DNA from: Labia minor
Lineage: Eukaryota; Arthropoda; Insecta; Dermaptera; Spongiphoridae
Assembly (NCBI GenBank): GCA_963082975.1
Contig: OY720348.1
Span: forward strand, 75,727,719 to 75,791,718
Direction: 5' to 3'
Length of the DNA: 64,000 bases
This document shows, in pieces, positions 2,522 through 62,109 of this stretch; position 1 is the first letter of the stretch, and the number at the start of each line of letters is the position of its first letter. Made by a program: the position numbers and the translations under genes. Below the pieces are notes generated by a model that was given only the letters and a program-made list of their open reading frames with translations, made no database searches and had not been told where the DNA came from.

Positions 2522-2969
2522 ACTATCTCGCCAGAAAATTTGGTACATAGGCATTATTCAAAATTCGTAGTTTTCGATAAACTTTTGGGAAATGTAGCTC
2601 AACCGGAAGAGGGTCATTACCTACAACGTTTTGATTTTTTTCCTCTAAAGTGACCGTAAAAATAAAGATATATGTTTGATAATTTTTCTCATGATTAACA
2701 ATTGTATAAAACTGCTATATATAGAATTTCAACTTGATTGAATCACTGAAAGTACCGGAATTAATTTTTTACATATTTTTTGCAAATCTCACGCGCCAAC
2801 ACGTGGCGTGGTGCCATCAACAAAGAACCAAACATGCGCTGGTTTAATAAATATTATTTATTAATTTTAATTTATAATTTATAATTAATTAAATTTAATT
2901 TAAATATTATATATTATGTTATTTAATCCAATTCAAATTGCGAGAGAGTCGAGTGGAGACACTCCAGCT
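2522..2969 (+). mobile_element. Helentron-like (HINE) family 1, copy a
   Basis: Starts at ACTATCTCGCCAG after a T-run. It ends with GCGAGAGAGTCGAGTGGAG then ACACTCCAGCT, the family's 3' inverted repeat plus terminal hairpin. Compared with copy b it lacks roughly 190 bp just inside the 5' end, jumping from CGCCAG straight to AAATTTGGTA. It lies in the T-run of repeat C: the left flank CTTGATTTTT matches the uninterrupted CTTGATTTTTTGAAGG at 36541. Confidence 0.78.
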
Positions 2970-3989: not shown

Positions 3990-4020
3990 TTCTTTTTTGC
4001 TAGTATAATAAGATAAAATA

Positions 4021-5049
4021 ATTATTATATTTATGTAATGGTAAAGATTATCCGGGTAATTATATTGAAAATCATAAAGTGAGTTCCAATATTATATGAA
4101 TTCAAATAGGAGAATTGATATATTATTACCGGTAGATCGTTTATCAATAAATTTTCTCCCGAATATGTATTATTAATTATTTTTTCGTAAATGTAATGGA
4201 ACGCAATTGAATTGGAATGTGAAATTTAATTTTTAAAAAGTGATCCCATTATATAATCTATTCTTATGGAGTTGGCTGTTGTAGCTAAAACAAGTCATGT
4301 AATATTCTAAAATTGTAATTTCTCTCTCTCTCTCTCTCTTTCAGTTAATCCTTGCAAGCATCCGTCATCTCGCTGAGTGCACCTCCAAATTCATTCTGCC
4401 TTCCATCTTTTATGCTAATGAGCCATTTTCTGTGAAGTGTGTTGTATCATGGATCATTCTCATTCGGATTAACGGCACCCACCAACTAAAATACGGACAC
4501 AATAATCCTCTCTCTTTTGTCGTTTATTCTAATAGTTAAAATAATTAATAGTGTTAATTCAATGGACTCCAAAGATGACTTCCATAAATGCAACGAAAAC
4601 GATTTCATTCGATTTCATGTTTCCAATAGCAAAAGGTTTGTAGGAAAAAAGGGGAGAGTAGAAAGATGAAATAAATATGAAATTAATAATAATTCCGCCG
4701 TGATGCATGCTTTTTCATTTTTGATGGGATTTTATTAGAATTACTAGCAAAATAATATTTTTATTTTTTAGTTTTATAAATAATTCAATTCAATTTCATA
4801 TTTATTCCTTCCTTATAATAGAGAGAGAGAGATTTTCATAAAAACATTGATAATCAAAATAGGAATATGGATCAATACAATGGAATATGGAGGCACATTG
4901 TATTTAATGATAGATAAATAATAAAGTATTATAATTATAATAAAATAGGTATGCAATAGAAAAGTTTCAAAGCAATTAATTAATAATATAATAATTGGAA
5001 ATTGAATATTTTGATTATTAGTTCAATATTATGTTTTATAATTATTTTT
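4021..5049. other. AT-rich region with a possible cryptic exon
   Basis: Contains a (CT)n tract ending in TTTCAG at 4321-4344, which looks like a strong 3' splice site. It is followed by a 64-codon open frame ending at the stop 4537-4539. The peptide has no family I recognise and no downstream donor was established. A short (GA)n tract lies near 4821. Otherwise there is nothing. Confidence 0.25.
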
Positions 5050-5673
5050 ACTATCTCGCCAGAGATAGTATTGCGATCACGAAAATTTTCAATGTCGAGA
5101 TTTTGATGTTTTTATACGTTTTGAAAGTTCCTGATTCATTTTCACTAAGGTTGAGAAAAATGTGTGTGAATGTGTGTATATGTATATATATATGTGTATG
5201 TGTGTATGTAGACAAGATTACGCAAAAACGGTTTGAGCTGGAATCATGAAATTTGGTATACGGGCATTATTCAAAATTTGTAGTTTTCTATCAACTTTTG
5301 AGAAATGTAGCTCAACCGGAAGAGGGTCATTACCTACAACGTTTTGATTTTTTTTTTCCTCTAAACTGACCGTAAAAATACATCTTTGATAGTTTTTCAC
5401 ATGATTAAAAATTGTATAAAACTGCTATATATAGAATTTCAGCTTGATTGAATTGCTGAAAGTACCGGAATTAATTTTTTAACACTGCAAATCTCACGCA
5501 CCAACACGTGACATGGTGCCATCAACAAAGAACCAAAAACGCGCTGGTTTAAAAATTATTATTTATTAATTTTAATTTATAATTTATAATTAATTAAATT
5601 TAATTTAAATATAATATATTATGTTATATAATCCAATTCAAATTGCGAGATATTCGGGGGAGACACTCCAGCT
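5050..5673 (+). mobile_element. Helentron-like (HINE) family 1, copy b (fullest)
   Basis: The most complete copy, 624 bp. The 5' tip ACTATCTCGCCAGAGATAGT is itself a perfect hairpin (8-bp stem, loop GCCA). An internal TG/TA microsatellite lies at about 5161-5210. It is followed by the conserved phrases CAAAAACGGTTTGAGCTGG, GAAATTTGGTATACGGGC, GTAGCTCAACCGGAAGAGGG and a long AT-rich segment. The 3' end is GCGAGATATTCGGGGGAGA then CACTCCAGCTTA, slightly degraded relative to other copies. The short open frames inside are not genes. Confidence 0.82.
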
Positions 5674-6387: not shown

Positions 6388-6966
6388 AGCTGGAGTGTCT
6401 CCACTCGACTATCTCGCAATTTGAATTGGATTATATAACATAATATATTATATTTAAATTAAATTTAATTAATTATAAATTATAAATTAAAATTAATAAA
6501 TAAAATTTATTAAACCAGCGCGTTTTTGGTTCTTAGTTGATGGCACCATGTCACGTGTTGGTGGGTGAGATTTGCAGTGTTAAAAAATGAATTCCGGTAC
6601 TTTCAGTGATTCAATCAAGCTGAAATTCTATATATAGCAGTTTTATACAATTTTTAATCATGTGAAAAATTATCAAACATATATTGTTATTTTTACGGTC
6701 ACTTTAGAGGAAAAAAAATCAAAACGTTGTAGGTAATGACCCTCTTCCGGTTGAGCAACTTTTCTCAAATGTTGATAGAAAACTAAGAATTTTGAATAAT
6801 GCCCATGCACCAAATTTCATGTTTCTAGCTCAAACCGATTTTGCCTAATCTTGTCTCCATACATACACACAGACACACACAGACACACACAGACATTTTT
6901 TTCAACCTTAGTGAAGATGATTCAGGAACCTTCAAAACGTATAAAAACATCAAAATCGAGATAGTA
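6388..6966 (-). mobile_element. Helentron-like (HINE) family 1, copy c
   Basis: Reverse orientation. It begins on the plus strand with AGCTGGAGTGTCTCCACTCG then ACTATCTCGC (3' hairpin and inner inverted repeat). It ends with CGAGATAGTAAAAA, the reverse of the 5' tip. It contains an (AC)n tract near 6860-6893. The 5' interior is shortened: the segment with GATCACGAAAATTTTC seen in copies b and h is missing. Confidence 0.8.
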
Positions 6967-12425: not shown

Positions 12426-12655
12426 TATATTTATTATATAAATTAATATTCATTTAAAATGATATTAAATCATTTATTTAAAATTATTTAAAACATTTAT
12501 TAAAATGATTTAAAACATTCATTTAAAATGATATTAAAACATTCATTTAAAATCATATTAAAACATAGCTAGTAAATAATAATTCGTTATATTTATATTA
12601 TATTTATATTATATTTATATTATTGTAGTTCAATGTTAATAAATTACTCCATAAA

Positions 12656-14515
12656 ATGGATCGTTGGCTACAAACTGGTTCAACACAGAAACGGAAAGAA
12701 TCAGATGATGAGGCATCAACAGCAAACTCTACCAAGAAACGCAAAACTAGAAAATATTCGGATGATTATTTATCATTTGGATTTACTTATATTTGCAACA
12801 ATGATGTGGAAAGACCAGTCTGCGTTCTATGTCAGGAAAGTTTATCCAATGAAAGTATGAAACCTGCTAATCTCAGACGTCATTTACAAACAAAGCACAG
12901 CGAGCATGTTAGTAAGTCTATCGAATTTTTTAAAATGAAAAAAGAAGAACTTAATTCAAGTCAGAAATTGATGGTAAAGACGGGATCTGGTGGTATGAGT
13001 AAGAAAGCAGTAATGGCATCATATGAAGTAGCTCTACTTATTGCTAAAGCAGGAAAGCCGCATAATATAGCAGAGCAATTAATTCTTCCTGCTACAAAAG
13101 TAATTACAAATATAATGTTAGGAACTAAAGCAGCAAACGATATAAATTTGATTTCATTATCAAATGATACGGTTAAGAATAGGATTGAAGACATGTCATG
13201 TAATATAAAAGAAGAATTAATATCGAGAGTGCGCAAAAGTCACTATTACTCATTACAATTGGATGAAAGTACTGATGTCACTAATAATGCCAATTTGTTA
13301 GCTTTCATTAGATATGAGTTTGAAAATCAAATACAAGAAGATGTATTGTTTTGTGATTCACTACCTTCACGAACGACAGCTAATGACATATTTAACAGTT
13401 TGAATAATTTTATAACCGAAAATGAAATAGAGTGGCCAAAATGTGTTGGAATTTGCACTGATGGTGCTCGTGCAATGTCAGGTACAAGAACTGGATTGAT
13501 TGCTCTTATTAAAAATGTTGCGCCTCAGGTTGTTTGGAATCATTGCTGCATTCACAGAGAATCATTAGCAGCCAAAAATATGTCACCAGATTTGAAAAGA
13601 ACATTAGACGAAGTAGTTAAAATTGTCAATTTCATTAAGGCTCGTCCACTTAATTCCAGAGTTTTTAAAATTTTGTGTGAGGAAATGGGTAGTCAACATA
13701 CACATTTATTATTACATACAGATGTACGTTGGTTGTCCCGCGGGAAAGTACTCATTCGCCTTTTTGAGCTTCGAGATGAAATACGATTGTTTTTAATAGA
13801 TGCGCATTTTGAACTGACCGAATGTTTCAATGATTTTATCTGGTTAGCTAAGGTGGCTTACTTGACTGATATTTTTACAAAATTGAACGAACTTAATTTG
13901 AGCCTGCAAGGTACTGTTGTAAATATATTTAAAGTTGAAGATAAAATAGAAGCAATGATTAAAAAAATCGACTTGTGGTCGAAACGCATCCAGAACGGTG
14001 TATATGAGTCTTTTCCAACTCTCAATGATTTCATAGAAAGCTCCAGTGAAAAATTGCTTAATCAAACGCGTCAATTATTTGTTGAACATTTAATTACTTT
14101 GAAAAGCAACTTCAGGAAGTATTTTTCTACTCCTGATCCTTGCAATAACTGGATCAGAGATCCATTTAATATGGAAATTACAAATGCTAAACATTTATCT
14201 GCACCTGAACAAGATATTCTCGTGGAATTATCATGTGATACAACTTATAAACTAAAATTTAACAAAACTGAATTGAGCAACTTTTGGTTACTTCTCAGGT
14301 CAGATTATCCTGCGCTTGCAAATAAAGCACTTCAACACTTGATTCCATTCTGCACAACATATTTATGCGAACAAGCTTTTTCGGTACTATTTTATATTAA
14401 GTCTAAATATAGAAACAAATTAAATGTAGAGCCGGATCTTAGATTAAAAGTTTCCAATATTAAGCCAGATATTGAGATTCTTGTTTCAAGAAAACAACTG
14501 CATACATCTCATTAA
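12656..14515 (+). CDS. hAT-family transposase with BED zinc finger (ZBED5-like)
   Basis: DNA-cutting enzyme of the surrounding transposon, 619 residues, uninterrupted from ATG to TAA. The N terminus has a basic stretch, KKRKTRK at 27-33 (a likely nuclear localisation signal). A BED-type zinc finger follows (C56, C59, H76, H81). The RNase-H-like catalytic core shows LDEST with D203, CTDGARAM with D269, the CCIH motif at 297-300 and DVRWLSRG around W359. The C-terminal dimerisation/catalytic block has CEQAF with E572, followed by KYRNKLNVEPDLRL and NIKPDIE. Order and length match the ZBED5/FAM200-type proteins derived from Buster hATs. Start chosen: the first in-frame ATG, which keeps the basic region. 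An out-of-frame ATG at 12633 could act as an upstream reading frame. Catalytic roles follow from the family; activity is inferred only from intactness. The TSDs and ends (11542-14901) place it in a complete element. Confidence 0.93.
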   Translation: MDRWLQTGSTQKRKESDDEASTANSTKKRKTRKYSDDYLSFGFTYICNNDVERPVCVLCQESLSNESMKPANLRRHLQTKHSEHVSKSIEFFKMKKEELNSSQKLMVKTGSGGMSKKAVMASYEVALLIAKAGKPHNIAEQLILPATKVITNIMLGTKAANDINLISLSNDTVKNRIEDMSCNIKEELISRVRKSHYYSLQLDESTDVTNNANLLAFIRYEFENQIQEDVLFCDSLPSRTTANDIFNSLNNFITENEIEWPKCVGICTDGARAMSGTRTGLIALIKNVAPQVVWNHCCIHRESLAAKNMSPDLKRTLDEVVKIVNFIKARPLNSRVFKILCEEMGSQHTHLLLHTDVRWLSRGKVLIRLFELRDEIRLFLIDAHFELTECFNDFIWLAKVAYLTDIFTKLNELNLSLQGTVVNIFKVEDKIEAMIKKIDLWSKRIQNGVYESFPTLNDFIESSSEKLLNQTRQLFVEHLITLKSNFRKYFSTPDPCNNWIRDPFNMEITNAKHLSAPEQDILVELSCDTTYKLKFNKTELSNFWLLLRSDYPALANKALQHLIPFCTTYLCEQAFSVLFYIKSKYRNKLNVEPDLRLKVSNIKPDIEILVSRKQLHTSH

Positions 14516-16001: not shown

Positions 16002-16295
16002 AGCTGGAGTGTCTCCACTCGACTATCTCGCAAATTTGAATTGGATTAAATAACATAATATATTATATTTTAATTAAATTTAATTAATTATAAATTATAA
16101 ATTAAAAATAATAAATAATATTTATTAAACCAGCGCATGTTTGGCTCTTTGTTGATGGCACCACGTCACGTGTTGGCGCGTGATTTGCAATGTTAAAAAA
16201 TTAATTCTGGTACTTTCAGGGATTCAATCAAGTTGAAATTCTATATATAGCAGTTTTATACAATTTTTAATCATGTGAAAAACTATCAAACATAG
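16002..16295 (-). mobile_element. Helentron-like (HINE) family 1, copy d (5'-truncated)
   Basis: Plus strand begins AGCTGGAGTGTCTCCACTCG then ACTATCTCGC: the intact 3' hairpin and inner inverted repeat. The copy stops after CATGTGAAAAACTATCAAAC, so the microsatellite-bearing 5' half is missing. Confidence 0.75.
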
Positions 16296-17539: not shown

Positions 17540-18859
17540 GGTAATTAATGATAGGTAATATTTAACAAACGAAACGATATCATTGTCGCCACTTACCTGT
17601 TTGGGTAAGAATTCTACTATTAAAGCAAATTTATAAACTATAATTAATGAAAAGGAATTAAGGTTATTAAACAAAGACGATAGTTAAAAAATGTAATTTA
17701 ATATAACGAGAAATAGTAATATTATCCAAGTCTTATGAACAAACTATAAAATATAAATTGTAAATGAATTGGTAAATTTGATGAAACGAATGAAGCGAAA
17801 TGGCGTCAAGCAAAGAACAAAGAAATTATAATCAAGTGTAAATAGAATGAAACGAATTAATTATATGTTTATAAATTAATAACGAACGAAACGGATATAT
17901 GAAAAAATAAAGAAAATGAACAAATTAATATAAACAACAAATCTAAGAGAAATAATATAAATGAAAAGATAATAAACAAAAATAAATACGAGATGAGATG
18001 AAACGGTGTTGTTACGAGAGCGATCGAGAAAAAATTGTCGTCTCTGAAGCAGACAGAACCCTTGAAAAATTACAGTTAATAGATGGCAGAGCGGAGCACC
18101 CAAAACGGCTCGAACAACGATTTTTGCATATTTTCTAAACTGGTAAGCAGATGACTTGTAATTCGTCTTCAGCTAAAAAATGACGTTCTTTGAATGAAAT
18201 GACCATTAACCCCGGGGGCAGCGAAACGAACAATCCCATTGGAAGAGCAAGAATTTGTCAACGGAACAAGAAAATTTGGGGAGATGAAGGTGGGGGGGGG
18301 GGGGAAGTCAACCAGGTTGGATGTCCAGGCAGTCAAACACAAGATACAACCACAGAACATGCATCCGATTAGCAAAATATGTTCTCGATCACACATCTCT
18401 TCTAAAATCAAAACTTATTTAAATAAATAAAACAAAACAAAAAAAAAGGAATTTTGCAAAAAAATTATTTATAGAAAAATATTTTAATCAAATTTTAACT
18501 CAAAGACAATTAAATTGTTATTGAATTATATATACAGGTAAATTATTCCAATTTCCTAACAAATAAATAGAAAAATAATTAATAATTTAATTTAAAAAAA
18601 ATAAAACTAATAATATTTAGACTGATATCATTGTAAAAATATCAAAAAGAAACTTTTCAATGGAAAAAATTCTTAGGTTCAATTAATAATTTTCTAATTA
18701 AACGAACAAAGGGTGTAGTGCTCACCCACATGGCGAGATAATAAAAATATTATAATTTTAATATATATAGAAAAAAAATAATTGTTTTATAAGATAAAAT
18801 AAGTAATTTTAAATGTAACAAAACAAATCTTGCAAAAAAATAGAATACACAATAATAAT
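17540..18859. other. AT-rich region with a G-run
   Basis: Includes a poly-G run at about 18292-18304 in a patch of mixed composition (18000-18400). Small overlapping frames on both strands there have no recognised domain. At 18731-18752 the string TGGCGAGATAATAAAAATATT resembles the 5' tip of Helentron-like family 1 in reverse, possibly a solo remnant. Confidence 0.35.
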
Positions 18860-20208: not shown

Positions 20209-20315
20209 TAAAAAAAAACCTCTGACTTTGTACGTTTTACGCAAGGAGAACGCCTATCAAGTCGGTTATATCAATGAGGTGTCCTATGATCAATAGAACG
20301 GATCCTCTTAACCTT
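20209..20315 (-). mobile_element. tRNA-derived SINE, copy 3, 3' part only
   Basis: Matches only the 3' third of the SINE (plus-strand text ACCTCTGACTTTGTACG through TATCAATGAGGTGTCCTATG). It breaks off at ACCTTATAAATT, where Helentron-like sequence begins. The junction joins two repeats that both lost an end, suggesting deletion after insertion. Confidence 0.75.
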
Positions 20316-20799
20316 ATAAATTAAAATTAATAAATAATATTTATTTAACAAGCGCATGTTTGGCTCTTTGTTGATGGCACCACGTCACGTGTTAGCGCGT
20401 GATTTGCAATGTTAAAAAATTAATTCTGGTAATTTCAGGGATTCAATCAAGCTGAAATTCTATATATAGCAGTTTTATACAATTTTTAATCATGAGAAAA
20501 ACTATCAAACAGATATCTTTATTTTTGCGGTCAAAATCAAAACGTTGTAGGTAATGACCCTTTTCCGGTTGAGCTACATTTCTTAAAAGTTGATAGAAAA
20601 CTAAAAATTTTGAATAATGCCCATGTATCAAATTTGATGATTCTAGCTCAAACCGTTTTTGCGTAATCTTGTTTACATACACATACAGACATTTTTGAAA
20701 TTAGTGAAAATGATTCAGGAACCTTCAAAACGTATAAAAACATCAAAATCTCGACATCGAAAATTTTCGTGATCGCAATACTATCTCTGGCGAGATAGT
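20316..20799 (-). mobile_element. Helentron-like (HINE) family 1, copy e (3'-truncated)
   Basis: Carries the body and the full 5' tip: plus-strand GATCGCAATACTATCTCTGG then CGAGATAGTAAAAA at 20772-20804. The 3' hairpin end is missing because the copy starts inside the AT-rich segment at the SINE junction. The 79-residue minus-strand frame here is repeat translation. Confidence 0.78.
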
Positions 20800-23210: not shown

Positions 23211-24049
23211 TATTATTTCAGTGAAAAGATATTTTGTATTGCATGTGTGCTGATGTTTCTAAAGCGTAAAAATTTTAAAAACATTGATTAGGCTTTTGAT
23301 GAAAAATAATAATAATAATCAATGGAAGAAATGACGAGCTAATGAAATCGGAAAACCCCGTACTTGAATGGAAATCCAAGATTATAGGGGAAAGTTATTT
23401 ATCACAACAGCGCCGGCGCTAGACAATTTGCCGCCACAGGTAATTTTAGTTGCCCCTGTCCGATGAGAAATATACTGATGGATCTTGAAACTTAATCCTA
23501 TTATTATTATAACATGAATGTCTGATTTTTCCTTTTTAATAAAAAAAAAAAAAAAGTTTTGTTTTAATATGAATCAACTGATTTTCCATTAATTACTTCC
23601 CCAAATAAAAATTAGATTTATCTTAATGAATAATTAATACTTAATCAATAATGTGTTTTCGTATAAATAATATTTATGTGCAGATTTCAATTTTTTAAAA
23701 ATCATCAATTTAATATCAGAACACATTCGATTTATGATTTATCTAATTTAAAAATAATCATGAATTTTATATGTTATTTTTGTCCAATTTTAGGTTAACA
23801 AAGCAAGAGAAGGAAGCTAATTATGCGCAAATGGCGAAAATGAAATAACTGATAAATTTAGTGCCCTACAACAATAAATAGAAAGCAATGGATACTCTAG
23901 ACAGGGTCACCTGGCTGTTTAGCCTACCTTGGCCTTAAATTTTAATTTTATTCTTTCAATGAAAGAGTGAATGCAGTTAAGCCCATTTAATGCTTTAAAA
24001 AGTTTATAGTAACAATGTTCTAAATTCAAAATGATGAATCTTGTAGGGT
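23211..24049. other. AT-rich region, possible hAT MITE tip
   Basis: At 23405-23470 the text CAGCGCCGGCGCTAGACAAT plus GCCGCCACAGG looks like one end of a hAT MITE, but no matching right end was found. A 67-residue minus frame (23919-24122) has no recognised domain. Confidence 0.3.
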
Positions 24050-24074
24050 TCGATGTCGACATTTTGATGTTTTT

Positions 24075-24736
24075 ACCGACCGACGATAGTAAGGGAGGTA
24101 TTGTTTTCACACCAAATTTCACATGTGGAGATTTTTACATATCTCCACGAATCATGCATTTTCTAAACAGAAAAAAGTATTTTTAGCATGATGTCTGTCC
24201 GTCCGTCCGTCTGTCCGTCCGTCTGTCCGTCCGTCTGTCCGTCTGTCCGTCCGTATAGATGTGTACAGCCTGAACGGCTCAACCGATTTTGATGAAATTT
24301 GGTATATTTACTTAATGCATCAGTGGGATGAATTGATCAACTTTTGGTGCAATTCCGGAAACCGGAAGTGGTAGTATTAGCGATCGACGATAGGAAGGAA
24401 AGGGTTATTTTCACACCAAAGGAGATTTTTTTATATATTACCACGAATCATGCACTTTGTATTGGTTTTATCCTCGAGAAAAATCATATTTATTAGTTTT
24501 TTCTTGATTTAAAATTATATGACGTCATCCAGCCATTCATGACGCCACAGCCTGGTCTTGCATATATATTATAAATAAAATAAAATTAAAAATGTTTATA
24601 TTTATTATTTATGTATCCATATCTGTTTTTTATTACATTAATAGATATATTAAAATTATTTGAAATTGTTTCTGTAGCTGGAAATTAATTTATTTCAAAC
24701 CGTCGGTCGGTTCGGACCTGGCCACAGGTCAACTTA
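24075..24736 (+). mobile_element. Helentron-like (HINE) family 2, copy a
   Basis: Begins ACCGACCGACGATAG after a T-run. It has a tetranucleotide array of CCGT/CTGT units (about 24193-24254), then ACGGCTCAACCG, ATGAAATTTGGTATATT and the phrase CCGGAAACCGGAAGTGG. It ends CGTCGGTCGGT (the 5' tip inverted), followed by the perfect hairpin GACCTG-GCCA-CAGGTC and AACTTA. The 5' module (CACACCAAA..CACGAATCATGCA) appears a second time near 24411-24460. Confidence 0.85.
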
Positions 24737-24795
24737 TTATGTTTTGAAGGCCCCTGAGTCATTTTCACTAAGGTTGAGAAAAATGTATGTATGTA

Positions 24796-24831
<36 letters not shown>

Positions 24832-24982
24832 CAAGAATACGCAAAAACGGTTTGAGCTAGAATCATGAAATTTGGTCACGGGCATTATTCAAAATTCGTA
24901 GTTTTCTTTAACTTTTGAGAAATGTAGCTCAACCGGAAGAGGGTCATTACCCCTACCACGTTTTCATTTTTTTCCTCTAAAC

Positions 24983-25231
24983 CAGTGATTCTCAACCACT
25001 GTGCAGCGGCACTTTAGTGTGTCGCGAGATTATGAGGCTCTCAAACATTTCCGACTATTTTTTCTAAATTTCTTCAATTTCGTTATTTTTTTTTAAAAAA
25101 AGGTAAACCGTTTTTGGAACAACTTTTTTTCAATATGGTAAACTTTTACACTTATCTTTTTTTTCGTGTGCCGCCAAATTTTCAAACCGTTAAAAGTGTG
25201 CCGCGGTAAAGCAAAAGGTTGAGAATCACTG
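24983..25231. mobile_element. hAT MITE, 249 bp, perfect TSD
   Basis: Ends CAGTGATTCTCAACC and GGTTGAGAATCACTG are exact inverted repeats. Flanking CTCTAAAC occurs at 24975-24982 and 25232-25239. The host family-1 element has a single CTCTAAAC at the same position in copy b (about 5358), which proves the duplication. CTC-TA-AAC fits nnnTAnnn. Confidence 0.93.
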
Positions 25232-25542
25232 CTCTAAACTAACCTTAAAAATAAACATAGATGTTTAATAGTTTTTCACATGATTAAAAATTGCTGTATA
25301 TAGAATTTCAGCTTGATTGTATCGCTAAAAGTACCGGAAATTTTTTAACACTTTGACTGTCAATCACGCCCCAGCAAGTAACGTGGTATTATTAACAAAG
25401 AGCTAAACACGCTCTGGTTTAATAATCATTATTTATTAATTTTAATTTATAATTTAATTAATTATATATTTGATTTAAATATAATATATGTTAATTAATC
25501 CAAATCAAATTTGCGAGATAGTCGAGTGGAGACACTCCAGAT

Positions 25543-31776: not shown

Positions 31777-32293
31777 ACTATCTCGCCATGCCTGTGTGTG
31801 TGTGTGTGTGTGTGCAGACAAGATTACGCAAAAACGGTTTGAGCTAGAATAATGAAATTTGGTATAAGGGCATTATTCAAAATTCGTGGTTTTCTATCAA
31901 CTTTCGAGAAATGTAGCTCATCTAGAAGAGGGTCATTACCTCCAACGCGTTTTGATTTTTTTTTCCTCTAAAGTGACCGTAAAAATAAAGATATATGTTT
32001 GATAATTTTTCACATGATTAAAAATTGTATACAACTGCTATATATACAATTTCAACTTGATTGAATCACTGAAAGTGCCAGAATTAATTTTTTACATATT
32101 TTTTGCAAATCTCACGCGCCAACACGTGACGTGGTGCCATCAACAAAGAGCCAAACATGCGCTGGTTTAATAAATATTATTTATTAATTTTAATTTATAA
32201 TTTATAATTAATTAAATTTAATTTAAATATAATATATTATGTTATTTAATCCAATTCAAATTACGAGATAGTCGAGTTGAGACACTCAAACTT
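31777..32293 (+). mobile_element. Helentron-like (HINE) family 1, copy g
   Basis: ACTATCTCGCCATGCC leads directly into a (TG)n microsatellite (31793-31814), then CAAGATTACGCAAAAACGG and the rest of the family body. It ends ACGAGATAGTCGAGTTGAGA then CACTCAAACTTA, where the terminal hairpin has two changes that weaken the stem. The 5' interior between tip and microsatellite is deleted. Confidence 0.8.
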
Positions 32294-32817: not shown

Positions 32818-33376
32818 ACTAACTCGTCAGAGATAGTGTTGCGATCACGAAAATTTTCGATGTTGAGATTTTGATGTTGTTATACGTTTTGAAGGTTCCT
32901 GAATCATTTTCACTAAGGTTGAGAAAAATGTCTGTGTATGTATGTAGACAAGATTACGCAAAAACGGTTTGAGCTAGAATCATAAAATTTGGTATATTCA
33001 AAATTCGTAGTTTTCAATCAACTTTTGAGAAATGTAGCTCAACCGGAAGAGGGTCATTACCTACAACGTTTTGATTTTTTTTTCTCTAAAGTGACCGTAA
33101 AAATAAAGATAAATATTTGATAATTTTTCACATCATTACAAATTGTATCAAACTCCTATATATAGAATGTCAGCTTGATGAATCGCTGAAAGTACCGGAA
33201 TTAATTTTTTAACACGACTGCAAATCACGCGCTAACACGTGACGTGGTGCCATCAACAAAAAGCCAAACACGCGCTGGTTTAATAAATATTATTTATTAA
33301 TTTTAATTTAAATATAATATATGATATTTAATCCAATTCAAATTTGCGAGATAGTCGAGTGGAGACACTCCAGCTT
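32818..33376 (+). mobile_element. Helentron-like (HINE) family 1, copy h
   Basis: Near-complete. It starts ACTAACTCGTCAGAGATAG (tip with two changes), then GATCACGAAAATTTTCGATG, a very short TGTATGTATG array and the conserved core. It ends GCGAGATAGTCGAGTGGAGA plus CACTCCAGCTTA with the hairpin GAGTG-gaga-CACTC intact. The AT-rich 3' segment is shorter than in copy b. Confidence 0.83.
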
Positions 33377-40100: not shown

Positions 40101-41227
40101 TAAATGTTATTAATTTATTTAAAAAAAAATCAGAGTAAACAAAATAAAAATAAAATATAAAATTAGCATAACACTAAACTACTATAAAAATAATATTAAA
40201 AAATATATTATATATTAAAATCTTACGTGAAAATCCAATTATGAGATCAAATTTTCTTAATTAAAATAATTTACTCACATAATCTTAAAAATTAATAATA
40301 TTAAATTATAGCCGTAATGTGAATGTTTTTAAAGTTTAAAAGGCCAATAAGATCAATTGAGATATTGTAAATATCAATAGATATATAAAAAGATTTTTAT
40401 CTGCACATTGCTCAGAATTTAAATTACCGCCAAATTATCGCCACCAGCGCCTCTATGATCTAGTATGGTAACTAAACTATTTTTAATTAATATTCTTTAA
40501 AATTTTTCTAATTAAAAAATCGAAAATCGGGCTTCGAGGTCTGGTGGCCAGCCCCTTTGTGCTTCCGTGTAAAAAATTCCATGTCCCTGCGTGCGATAGA
40601 TTTGCCTGGAGAGCTCGGTCAGACACAGACAAACAGACACATTACACTTGCTTTTATTATTATAGATATTCATTATAATTATATTAAAATATTGAAATTG
40701 GCAGGTTTTGCTCTATCGAAAGCAATAGGAATATTTTTCAAATTTTCTCTTTTATAAACTATTTTAGCATAATGGGGATTTAATAGTAAAATTAATGAAA
40801 TGAATGAAAATTAGTGAAATGAAATATGTCATGGTTCAACATTTCAATTGATTCCTTTTCAAAACAAAAGCGAACAAACTTGATTGTCATATAAAATTAA
40901 AAAATTATATAATACAATATATAATAAAGTCCAGTGGAGTCACTCCAGCTTATTTTTATAAAATATATAAAGTTTTAAATACTTATCAGAGTAAAAAAGT
41001 GTTGATAATGAAGTAAATATATTCTGGTAAATACCTAAAAAAGAGAAAAGAAATAATTAGTAATTATACTAATAAATAATAATAAGAAGAAGAATAAAAA
41101 TGAATCATAAAGGGATAAAAATAAATAAAAAAAATGTTGACTATAAATGGCCTTCTAAAAATAATTTTATTTAGAAAATGAATACCTATAGCTAATATAT
41201 TGAGTAAAATAGTAGTACATATACAAT
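40101..41227. other. AT-rich region with repeat debris
   Basis: 40525-40640 is a GC-richer block (CTTCGAGGTCTGGTGGCCAG, GGAGAGCTCGGTCAGACACA, then CAGACAAACAGACAC) that looks like part of a dispersed element with a CAGACA array. 40932-40952 (CAGTGGAGTCACTCCAGCTT) resembles the 3' terminal hairpin of Helentron-like family 1 as a solo tip. Confidence 0.35.
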
Positions 41228-55692: not shown

Positions 55693-55890
55693 GTTTCAAG
55701 TCATTTTGATTCCAAAAGAGTGGTTGAGTCCTGTTGACGTATGTATTGTCGGGGGGGGGGGAGGATAAATGTGATAAGAAGGAGGTGAATTTGTTCATAA
55801 AATGTCTGCACCCTCGGCAACACATACGTCAACGGGACTCCACCACTCTTTAGGAATCAAAATGACTTGAAATCTCTGGCGAGATAGTAA
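55693..55890. repeat. Long inverted repeat next to a Helentron-like 5' tip
   Basis: Arms 55693-55744 and 55822-55872 are inverted copies with only a few mismatches (TTTCAAGTCATTTTGATTCC / GACGTATGT), around a loop of about 77 bp that includes a 12-G run. The right arm runs straight into CTCTGGCGAGATAGTAAAAA, the reversed 5' tip of family 1, so a related element with a different body may start here. Confidence 0.75.
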
Positions 55891-61469: not shown

Positions 61470-61752
61470 CGAAATAATATAAATGATTAAAATGAAAAAA
61501 AAAATCTACAAACGAGCTGAAACAGAGAAAATAGTTTTTTATCTAATTTTTATCCAAGATTTTTTTTCATTAAAAATTTGGCAGCAATCTTCCCCTTGGA
61601 TACAGATAAATAAATCGAGAACAAACATCTGCTTTAAAAGATTCAAATACGGGCGATATTTTTTTGTCTTGAAAAAAATTGTCTTTTTAAGTTTTCTAGA
61701 AGAAAATTAGTTGAATAGAAACATTTTGATTAATTTTTATAAAGAAAAATAA
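60072..61752. other. AT-rich region
   Basis: (AT)n at 60892-60918 and (ATT)n at 61436-61470. Frames at 60578-60760 and 61483-61710 lack domains. Confidence 0.5.
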
Positions 61753-62109
61753 ACTGGAGTGTCTCCGCTCGACTATCTCGCAAATTGGAATTGGATTAAT
61801 TAATATATATTATATTTAAATTAAATTTAATTAATTATAAATTAAAATTAATAAATAATATTTATTAAATCAGCGCATGTTTAGCTCTTTGTTGATGGCA
61901 CCACATCACGTGTTGGCGGGTGAAATTTGCATTGTTAAAAATTAATTCTGGCACTTTCAGCGATTCAATCAAGCTGAAATTCTATATATAGCAGTTTTAT
62001 ACAATTTTTAATCATGTGAAAAACTATCAAACCTATATCTTTATTTTTACGGTCACTTTAGAAAAAAAAAATCAAAACGTTGTAGGTAATGACCCTCTGG
62101 CGAGATAGT
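61753..62109 (-). mobile_element. Helentron-like (HINE) family 1, copy i (internally deleted)
   Basis: Plus strand begins ACTGGAGTGTCTCCGCTCG then ACTATCTCGC, contains the body as far as GTAGGTAATGACCCTC, and then jumps directly to TGGCGAGATAGTAA, the 5' tip. Both ends are kept while the microsatellite half is lost, the pattern of a deletion derivative. Confidence 0.82.

Follow-up and report, generated by a model that had tools for sequence, protein, structure and literature searches.

Helentrons and the non-autonomous HINEs that accompany them have been described from mite, mosquito and Drosophila (Thomas, Vadnagara and Pritham 2014; PMC4067079). In the sections of that paper drawn on here, these elements carry subterminal inverted repeats (subTIRs), a palindromic 5' tip and a 3' hairpin, and lie in T-rich targets without target-site duplication (TSD), the number of Ts being variable (its sections 6 and 8). 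The Rep signature of Helentrons is a Ser between the Gly and Pro of the RGSPH-type motif (section 7), HINEs are deletion derivatives of elements encoding Rep, helicase and endonuclease, and families are defined by 11 identical bp (section 9). These features of ends and target, and the Rep signature, recur, and the origin is most likely the same, in the repeat that we call family 1, which is present in several copies in the window (the whole 64-kb stretch analysed, C10:75727719-75791718, from an assembly of 604 Mb in 71 contigs), taken together with a coding element, E, found elsewhere in the assembly. The kind of element is thus already known from the parts of that account used here, and family 1 and E are a new member of it.

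The differences are of detail. The family-1 subTIR of 10 bp is one short of the 11-bp family criterion and compares with 12-15 bp in mite, while the 3' subTIR is followed by about 20 bp as against 38-60 bp in mite; E may also have a C-terminal Ulp1-like domain, unlike the Helentrons in those sections of the paper. DINE-1/INE-1 of Drosophila, as portrayed there, similarly have a 5' subTIR that itself contains an inverted repeat, a microsatellite in the interior, a stem-loop at the 3' end and TT as target, a likeness by description alone, with a subTIR of 13 rather than 10 bp. Helitron2, again according to those sections, resembles family 1 in its asymmetric terminal inverted repeats and in having a palindrome at either end but is without an endonuclease, whereas E probably has one. 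Canonical Helitrons, represented in this genome by elements A and B (RGLPH), have an HUH Rep and a PIF1 helicase in common with E. However, they begin with TC, end with CTRR and insert between A and T, whereas family 1 has neither end (ACTATC... / ...CAGCT(AA)) and sits in T-runs.

Family-1 copies, their ends and their targets

A sequence-only reading of the window had listed at least nine copies sharing a 5' tip, the same ten bases inverted near the 3' end, and a terminal hairpin. The family is real, and the copy at 5050-5673, used as a BLAST query against the window, found matches at all nine places, but not every copy has every feature since tips and tails vary or are missing (Table 1). The exact 11-base 5' tip is present in five of the nine (2522, 5050, 20799c, 31777 and 62109c), altered in two (32818 and 6388c, the latter keeping about nine bases) and absent from two (16002c and the copy at 24050/24738/25232, where the match at 24050 is a 27-bp scrap and the remainder lies at 24738 and 25232). 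The 3' motif GAGTGNNGACACTCCAGCT is exact in four copies (2522, 6388c, 16002c and 32818), has one to three mismatches in four more and is missing from one (20316c). Allowing at most one mismatch, the window contains 12 matches to the 5' tip ACTATCTCGCC, where shuffles lead one to expect 0.22; allowing at most three, it contains nine matches to the 3' motif (0.00 expected), eight of them within the listed copies and the ninth, at 40932, outside. The query copy itself is 6.9% from the consensus, among the older copies, and its 3' end has decayed: GCGAGATATT stands in place of GCGAGATAGT, and GGGG in place of GAGTG, so that the hairpin stem is lost in that copy.

Table 1. Family-1 features in the window (positions within the 64-kb stretch; internal positions refer to the consensus)
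Feature	Position	Strand	Description
HINE copy, internal deletion	2522..2969	+	13-14 bp of 5' tip fused to about position 200; 3' tail intact except one subTIR change
Full-length HINE copy, 624 bp	5050..5673	+	3' subTIR and hairpin decayed
5' palindrome	5050..5069	+	ACTATCTC-GCCA-GAGATAGT; first arm belongs to the 5' subterminal inverted repeat
3' subTIR and terminal hairpin region, decayed	5645..5673	+	GCGAGATATT C GGGG GAGA CACTC CAGCT
HINE copy	6388..6965	-	about 9 bp of 5' tip fused to about position 50; intact 3' tail
HINE copy, 5'-truncated	16002..16293	-	positions 333-624; intact 3' tail
HINE copy, positions 1-533	20314..20799	-	5' palindrome exact; without 3' end
HINE copy split by other DNA	24738..25542	+	pieces 24738-24982 and 25232-25542; scrap 24049-24075; without 5' tip
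HINE copy	31777..32292	+	about 12 bp of 5' tip fused to about position 144; 3 mismatches in the 3' tail
HINE copy	32818..33375	+	altered 5' tip ACTAACTCGTC; intact 3' tail
HINE copy	61752..62109	-	about 15 bp of 5' tip fused to about position 272; 2 mismatches in the 3' tail

Isolated ends are also present in the window. At 40932-40950 a 3' tail with two mismatches (CAGTG-GAGT-CACTCCAGCT) is preceded by no recognised HINE body, and family-1-like 5' tips at 55878-55888 and 18732-18742 (both minus strand) adjoin DNA without a recognised HINE body; in the 200-odd bp that follow the first of these tips a long inverted repeat is discernible by eye. An open frame of 628 aa at 12629-14515 has what we take to be a resemblance to hAT/ZBED-type transposases. 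Finally, a dispersed repeat, seen in the window from 24076, in E at 4007-4568 and in locus L002 at 1-800, combines a (GTCC)n stretch with words GGATTTTGATGAAATTTGGTAT, which by eye resemble the HINE core GAGCTAGAATGATGAAATTTGGTAC.

Across the genome the exact word TTTTTACTATCTCGCC, in which TTTTT precedes the 11-base tip, occurs 13,794 times, the full 20-base 5' palindrome 9,600 times and the 30-base 3' end 11,606 times, the reversed control giving 0 in each case. Simple division of the tips over the assembly corresponds to one per 44 kb. The first 4.6 Mb of C1 contain 56 exact 5' palindromes and 100 exact 3' ends, of which 29 and 29, respectively, pair within 1.5 kb; in 25 of the 29 pairs tip and tail are separated by 563-634 bp. 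A consensus of 625 bp, with a GT-rich microsatellite at about 115-165, was derived from 22 full-length copies chosen for an exact 5' palindrome, exact last ten bases and a length of 560-660 bp. Divergence from it ranges from 0.5% to 10.7% with a median of 1.3% (no more than 1% in eight of the 22), in a sample biased towards young copies by the insistence on exact ends. Family 1 is a young, high-copy HINE, and we infer that its activity is recent or present.

The consensus begins ACTATCTC-GCCA-GAGATAGT and ends GCGAGATAGT-C-GAGTG-GAGA-CACTC-CAGCT, so that the tip, the inverted ten bases and the hairpin recorded from the window are all there. The subterminal inverted repeats, ACTATCTCGC / GCGAGATAGT, are perfect over 10 bp, the 3' one lying about 20 bp inside the element end with the hairpin tail, common to the copies, beyond it. 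As single-stranded DNA the 5' hairpin folds at -6.4 kcal/mol, better than shuffles (z -3.5) and in keeping with the folding proposed for this tip, while the folding energy of the 3' tail is unremarkable by the same measure (z -1.4). One detail of the sequence-only reading has to be corrected: it had CAGCTT at the 3' end, but in 24 of 31 copies CAGCT is followed by AATT rather than by T. The terminus is most likely CAGCTAA, inserted in a T-run.

The flanks are strongly biased. On the 5' side (34 flanks) T occupies positions -1 and -2 without exception, -4 and -5 in 97% and -3 in 82%; on the 3' side (31 flanks) A is found at +1 in 84% and at +2 in 87%, followed by T at +3 in 94% and at +4 in 100%. 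TSDs, which the sequence-only reading had named as a refutation, were not detected beyond the level of shuffled flanks in 32 copies: a flank match of at least 5 bp containing C or G was seen once (7 bp), compared with 0.62 in shuffled pairings, and another copy has a 4-bp match. Two insertions, L016 and L006, have paralogous empty sites that are about 72-85% alike, and comparison of filled and empty sites gave no clear duplication of non-T bases, the L006 site being A/T-rich and ambiguous. The filled L016 site has about nine Ts and the empty one six, and with some three extra Ts a duplication of Ts and Ts brought by the element look the same.

A coding Helentron with family-1 ends

The interpretation of family 1 as a HINE has held up. 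To its ends, its T-run flanks and the lack of TSDs beyond shuffles can be added a Rep/helicase element with the same ends, the likely autonomous partner, of the kind that the sequence-only reading had proposed to look for. This element, E, occupies 12,167 bp (C1:47862611-47874777, minus strand). It starts with ACTATCTCGCCAGAGATAGTATTGCG directly after TTTTT; its first part aligns with consensus positions 1-508 in 515 columns (95.7%), and positions 299-535 then recur as a partial duplicate (93.7%). Its 3' end is identical to consensus positions 587-625 (39/39). The 5' leader holds nested repeats, and the 3' leader a dispersed repeat of 720 bp. Between them a frame of 2181 aa without stops (C1:47863894-47870436, minus strand) encodes DUF6570, Helitron_like_N and PIF1 domains (PF05970, E=1.9e-31). 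Rep motif 2 reads VEFQMRGSPHEH / RGSPHEH, with Ser between Gly and Pro where A and B have RGLPH. The protein also contains GSAGVGKS and SYVLKYVSK, presumably the Walker A and tyrosine motifs, respectively. Among the other Rep proteins of the genome it scores 329 bits against D but 99 against B and 98 against A.

The region C-terminal to the helicase probably encodes an AP endonuclease, judging from a match to Exo_endo_phos_2 (PF14529, E=7e-5) that at 23.1 bits is below the cut-off of 27.4 and that lies at the position published for Helentrons. A GDFN sequence and neighbouring motifs there are, we assume from inspection by eye, endonuclease-like. An Ulp1-like protease at the C-terminus is possible, as suggested by 34 residues resembling Peptidase_C48 (E 8e-4; 19.7 bits, below the cut-off of 20.7) and by a resemblance to SENP8 in the PDB (E 0.016). 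No Helentron with a fused Ulp1 domain was reported in the open-access titles and abstracts searched.

Further copies of E were sought by protein search with its C-terminal 490 residues. E2 lies on C1 and matches in three pieces (93-97%); E3, on C10, has three pieces at 76-91% and a fourth at 38%. Both copies are broken. A related element on C1, at C1:55789425-55798477, is 39% identical. E2, which was compared at its 3' side, agrees with E at 99.2% along 249 bp, and the agreement breaks off 7 bp beyond CAGCT. Since this stretch has no HINE body, the 3' end belongs to the Helentron. In E3, whose frame DNA is 88-90% identical to that of E, a 5' tip (TTTT followed by ACTATCTCGCCAGAGATAGT) and consensus positions 1-267 (81%) lie in the same orientation 1.39 kb upstream of the start of homology to the E frame. 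On the 3' side of E3 homology to E ceases after 204 bp, and the 1.5 kb inspected there, of which roughly 1.35 kb is past the homology, contains no family-1 3' tail. The 3' link between HINE and Helentron is therefore strict and the 5' link good, with both ends present in E only of the three copies. We put at about 90% the probability that family 1 is the HINE of a Helentron, most likely derived from the 12-kb E by internal deletion.

An unlikely alternative is that the HINE sequence 5' of E and E3 was inserted independently, the true Helentron 5' end being different and the 3' end alone shared. The leaders of E and E3 otherwise differ, and the E leader contains nested repeats, making a separate upstream HINE conceivable; the missing E3 tail points the same way. 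HINEs are also common enough, at the density given above, to adjoin unrelated elements by accident. Indeed Helitron A (1652 aa), considered as a partner, has one copy flanked by a family-1 tip and a HINE, but comparison of A copies places A's own ends inside the flanking tips, which are therefore separate insertions. Against this alternative, E and E3 have diverged by some 10% and yet each has a correctly oriented tip, 1.4 kb upstream of the frame in E3 and 4.3 kb in E, and no further exact ACTATCTC intervenes.

We consider it quite improbable that family 1 is mobilised by a Helitron2-like Rep element without endonuclease, such as D, or by another Rep element, with E sharing the ends through descent or recombination. 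D (1785 aa) does have the RGSPH motif and a frame that stops soon after the helicase, and the endonuclease matches in E fall short of the Pfam cut-offs. Furthermore, Helitron_like_N (PF14214) matches 104 places genome-wide and ends were checked at a minority of these, namely groups A, B, D and E plus about 1.5 kb around the first 12 places, where no family-1 tips were seen. Nevertheless, family-1 ends are lacking from 10 kb around D (including 0.6 kb of its 5' side) and from 18 kb around B (2039 aa), neither of which was retained as a partner, while the endonuclease match in E is in the published place and E2 shares the E 3' end. That family 1 is instead a MITE of a cut-and-paste (DDE) transposon with terminal inverted repeat ACTATCTCGC is very improbable: its copies are short, numerous and non-coding and have a perfect 10-bp inverted repeat, but the 3' repeat is subterminal with the shared hairpin tail outside it, the TSD that with terminal inverted repeats defines a MITE is not seen beyond shuffles, and the coding element found with these ends is a Rep/helicase.

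If E or its relatives are the mover, we infer the following order of nicking and joining. The HUH Rep of the partner would nick at the shared ends, and the PIF1 helicase would displace a single strand, beginning at the 5' tip (ACTATCTCGCC) and finishing with the hairpin and CAGCTAA of the 3' end. The strand would then be joined into a T-run without duplication of other target bases, the T-rich target probably having been opened by the endonuclease domain.

One Helitron of the genome gave an observation of its own. At loci L045-L050 and related places there are seven copies, with frames of 1537-1652 aa and equal profile scores, six of which are more than 99.9% identical over 3.56 kb; this suggests very recent activity. 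Two copies of the same Helitron lie head to head at L065 (C9:43359000-43365300), where at about L065:1620 one breaks off straight into the other.

Copies broken within the 5' hairpin

The full palindrome is present in 45 of the 100 first-listed TTTTT tips on C1, and the first 20 of the remaining 55 were inspected. Twelve of these continue in register with changes to the hairpin (two sharing the same flank), three run into DNA without clear HINE similarity, and five switch, somewhere about bases 11-16, to the interior of the element, near positions 34, 88, 177, 185 and 272 (88 judged by eye). Within the window four of the six exact 11-base tips switch likewise. Break points thus seem concentrated in the 5' hairpin, in a sample where the requirement for the first 11 bases hides any earlier breaks. 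Some copies without the second hairpin arm retain a proper tip and tail, in which case the indispensable 5' signal would be the tip and not the hairpin. A palindrome-less form (L084 and L091) was considered as a mobile variant, but both copies have the same 20-bp flank and their independence is unsupported.

A different repeat, at L037:623-2382 and L022 (the C1:2937355 and C1:1134914 regions), has ends that look inverted by eye (GAAGTGAAACTTCTT / AAGAAGTTTCACTTC), carries an endonuclease-like frame of 206 aa and has a HINE embedded in it; the two places are 98% alike. Among the matches listed, which cover the first 6.64 Mb of C1 and include at least seven such frames, four lie 382-384 bp from a HINE tip; some HINEs may accordingly be multiplied by another element.

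Two features could be new, the fused Ulp1-like domain and the hot spot for breakage at the 5' palindrome. The joint proposition, of a Helentron lineage with an Ulp1-like (C48) cysteine protease fused C-terminally to Rep, helicase and endonuclease, and with a 5' palindrome that is a frequent break point, its first 11-21 bases rejoined to interior or foreign DNA, is a tentative one to which we give somewhat less than even odds.

The analysis connects a highly abundant repeat, apparently without a name so far, with its most likely mover. The 13,794 tips and 11,606 tails, over 25,000 exact end words in all, become assignable to family 1, an aid to annotation. With a frame still open in one partner copy and eight of the 22 HINEs within 1% of their consensus, a single genome offers the means to study the ends, the choice of target and what the endonuclease does.
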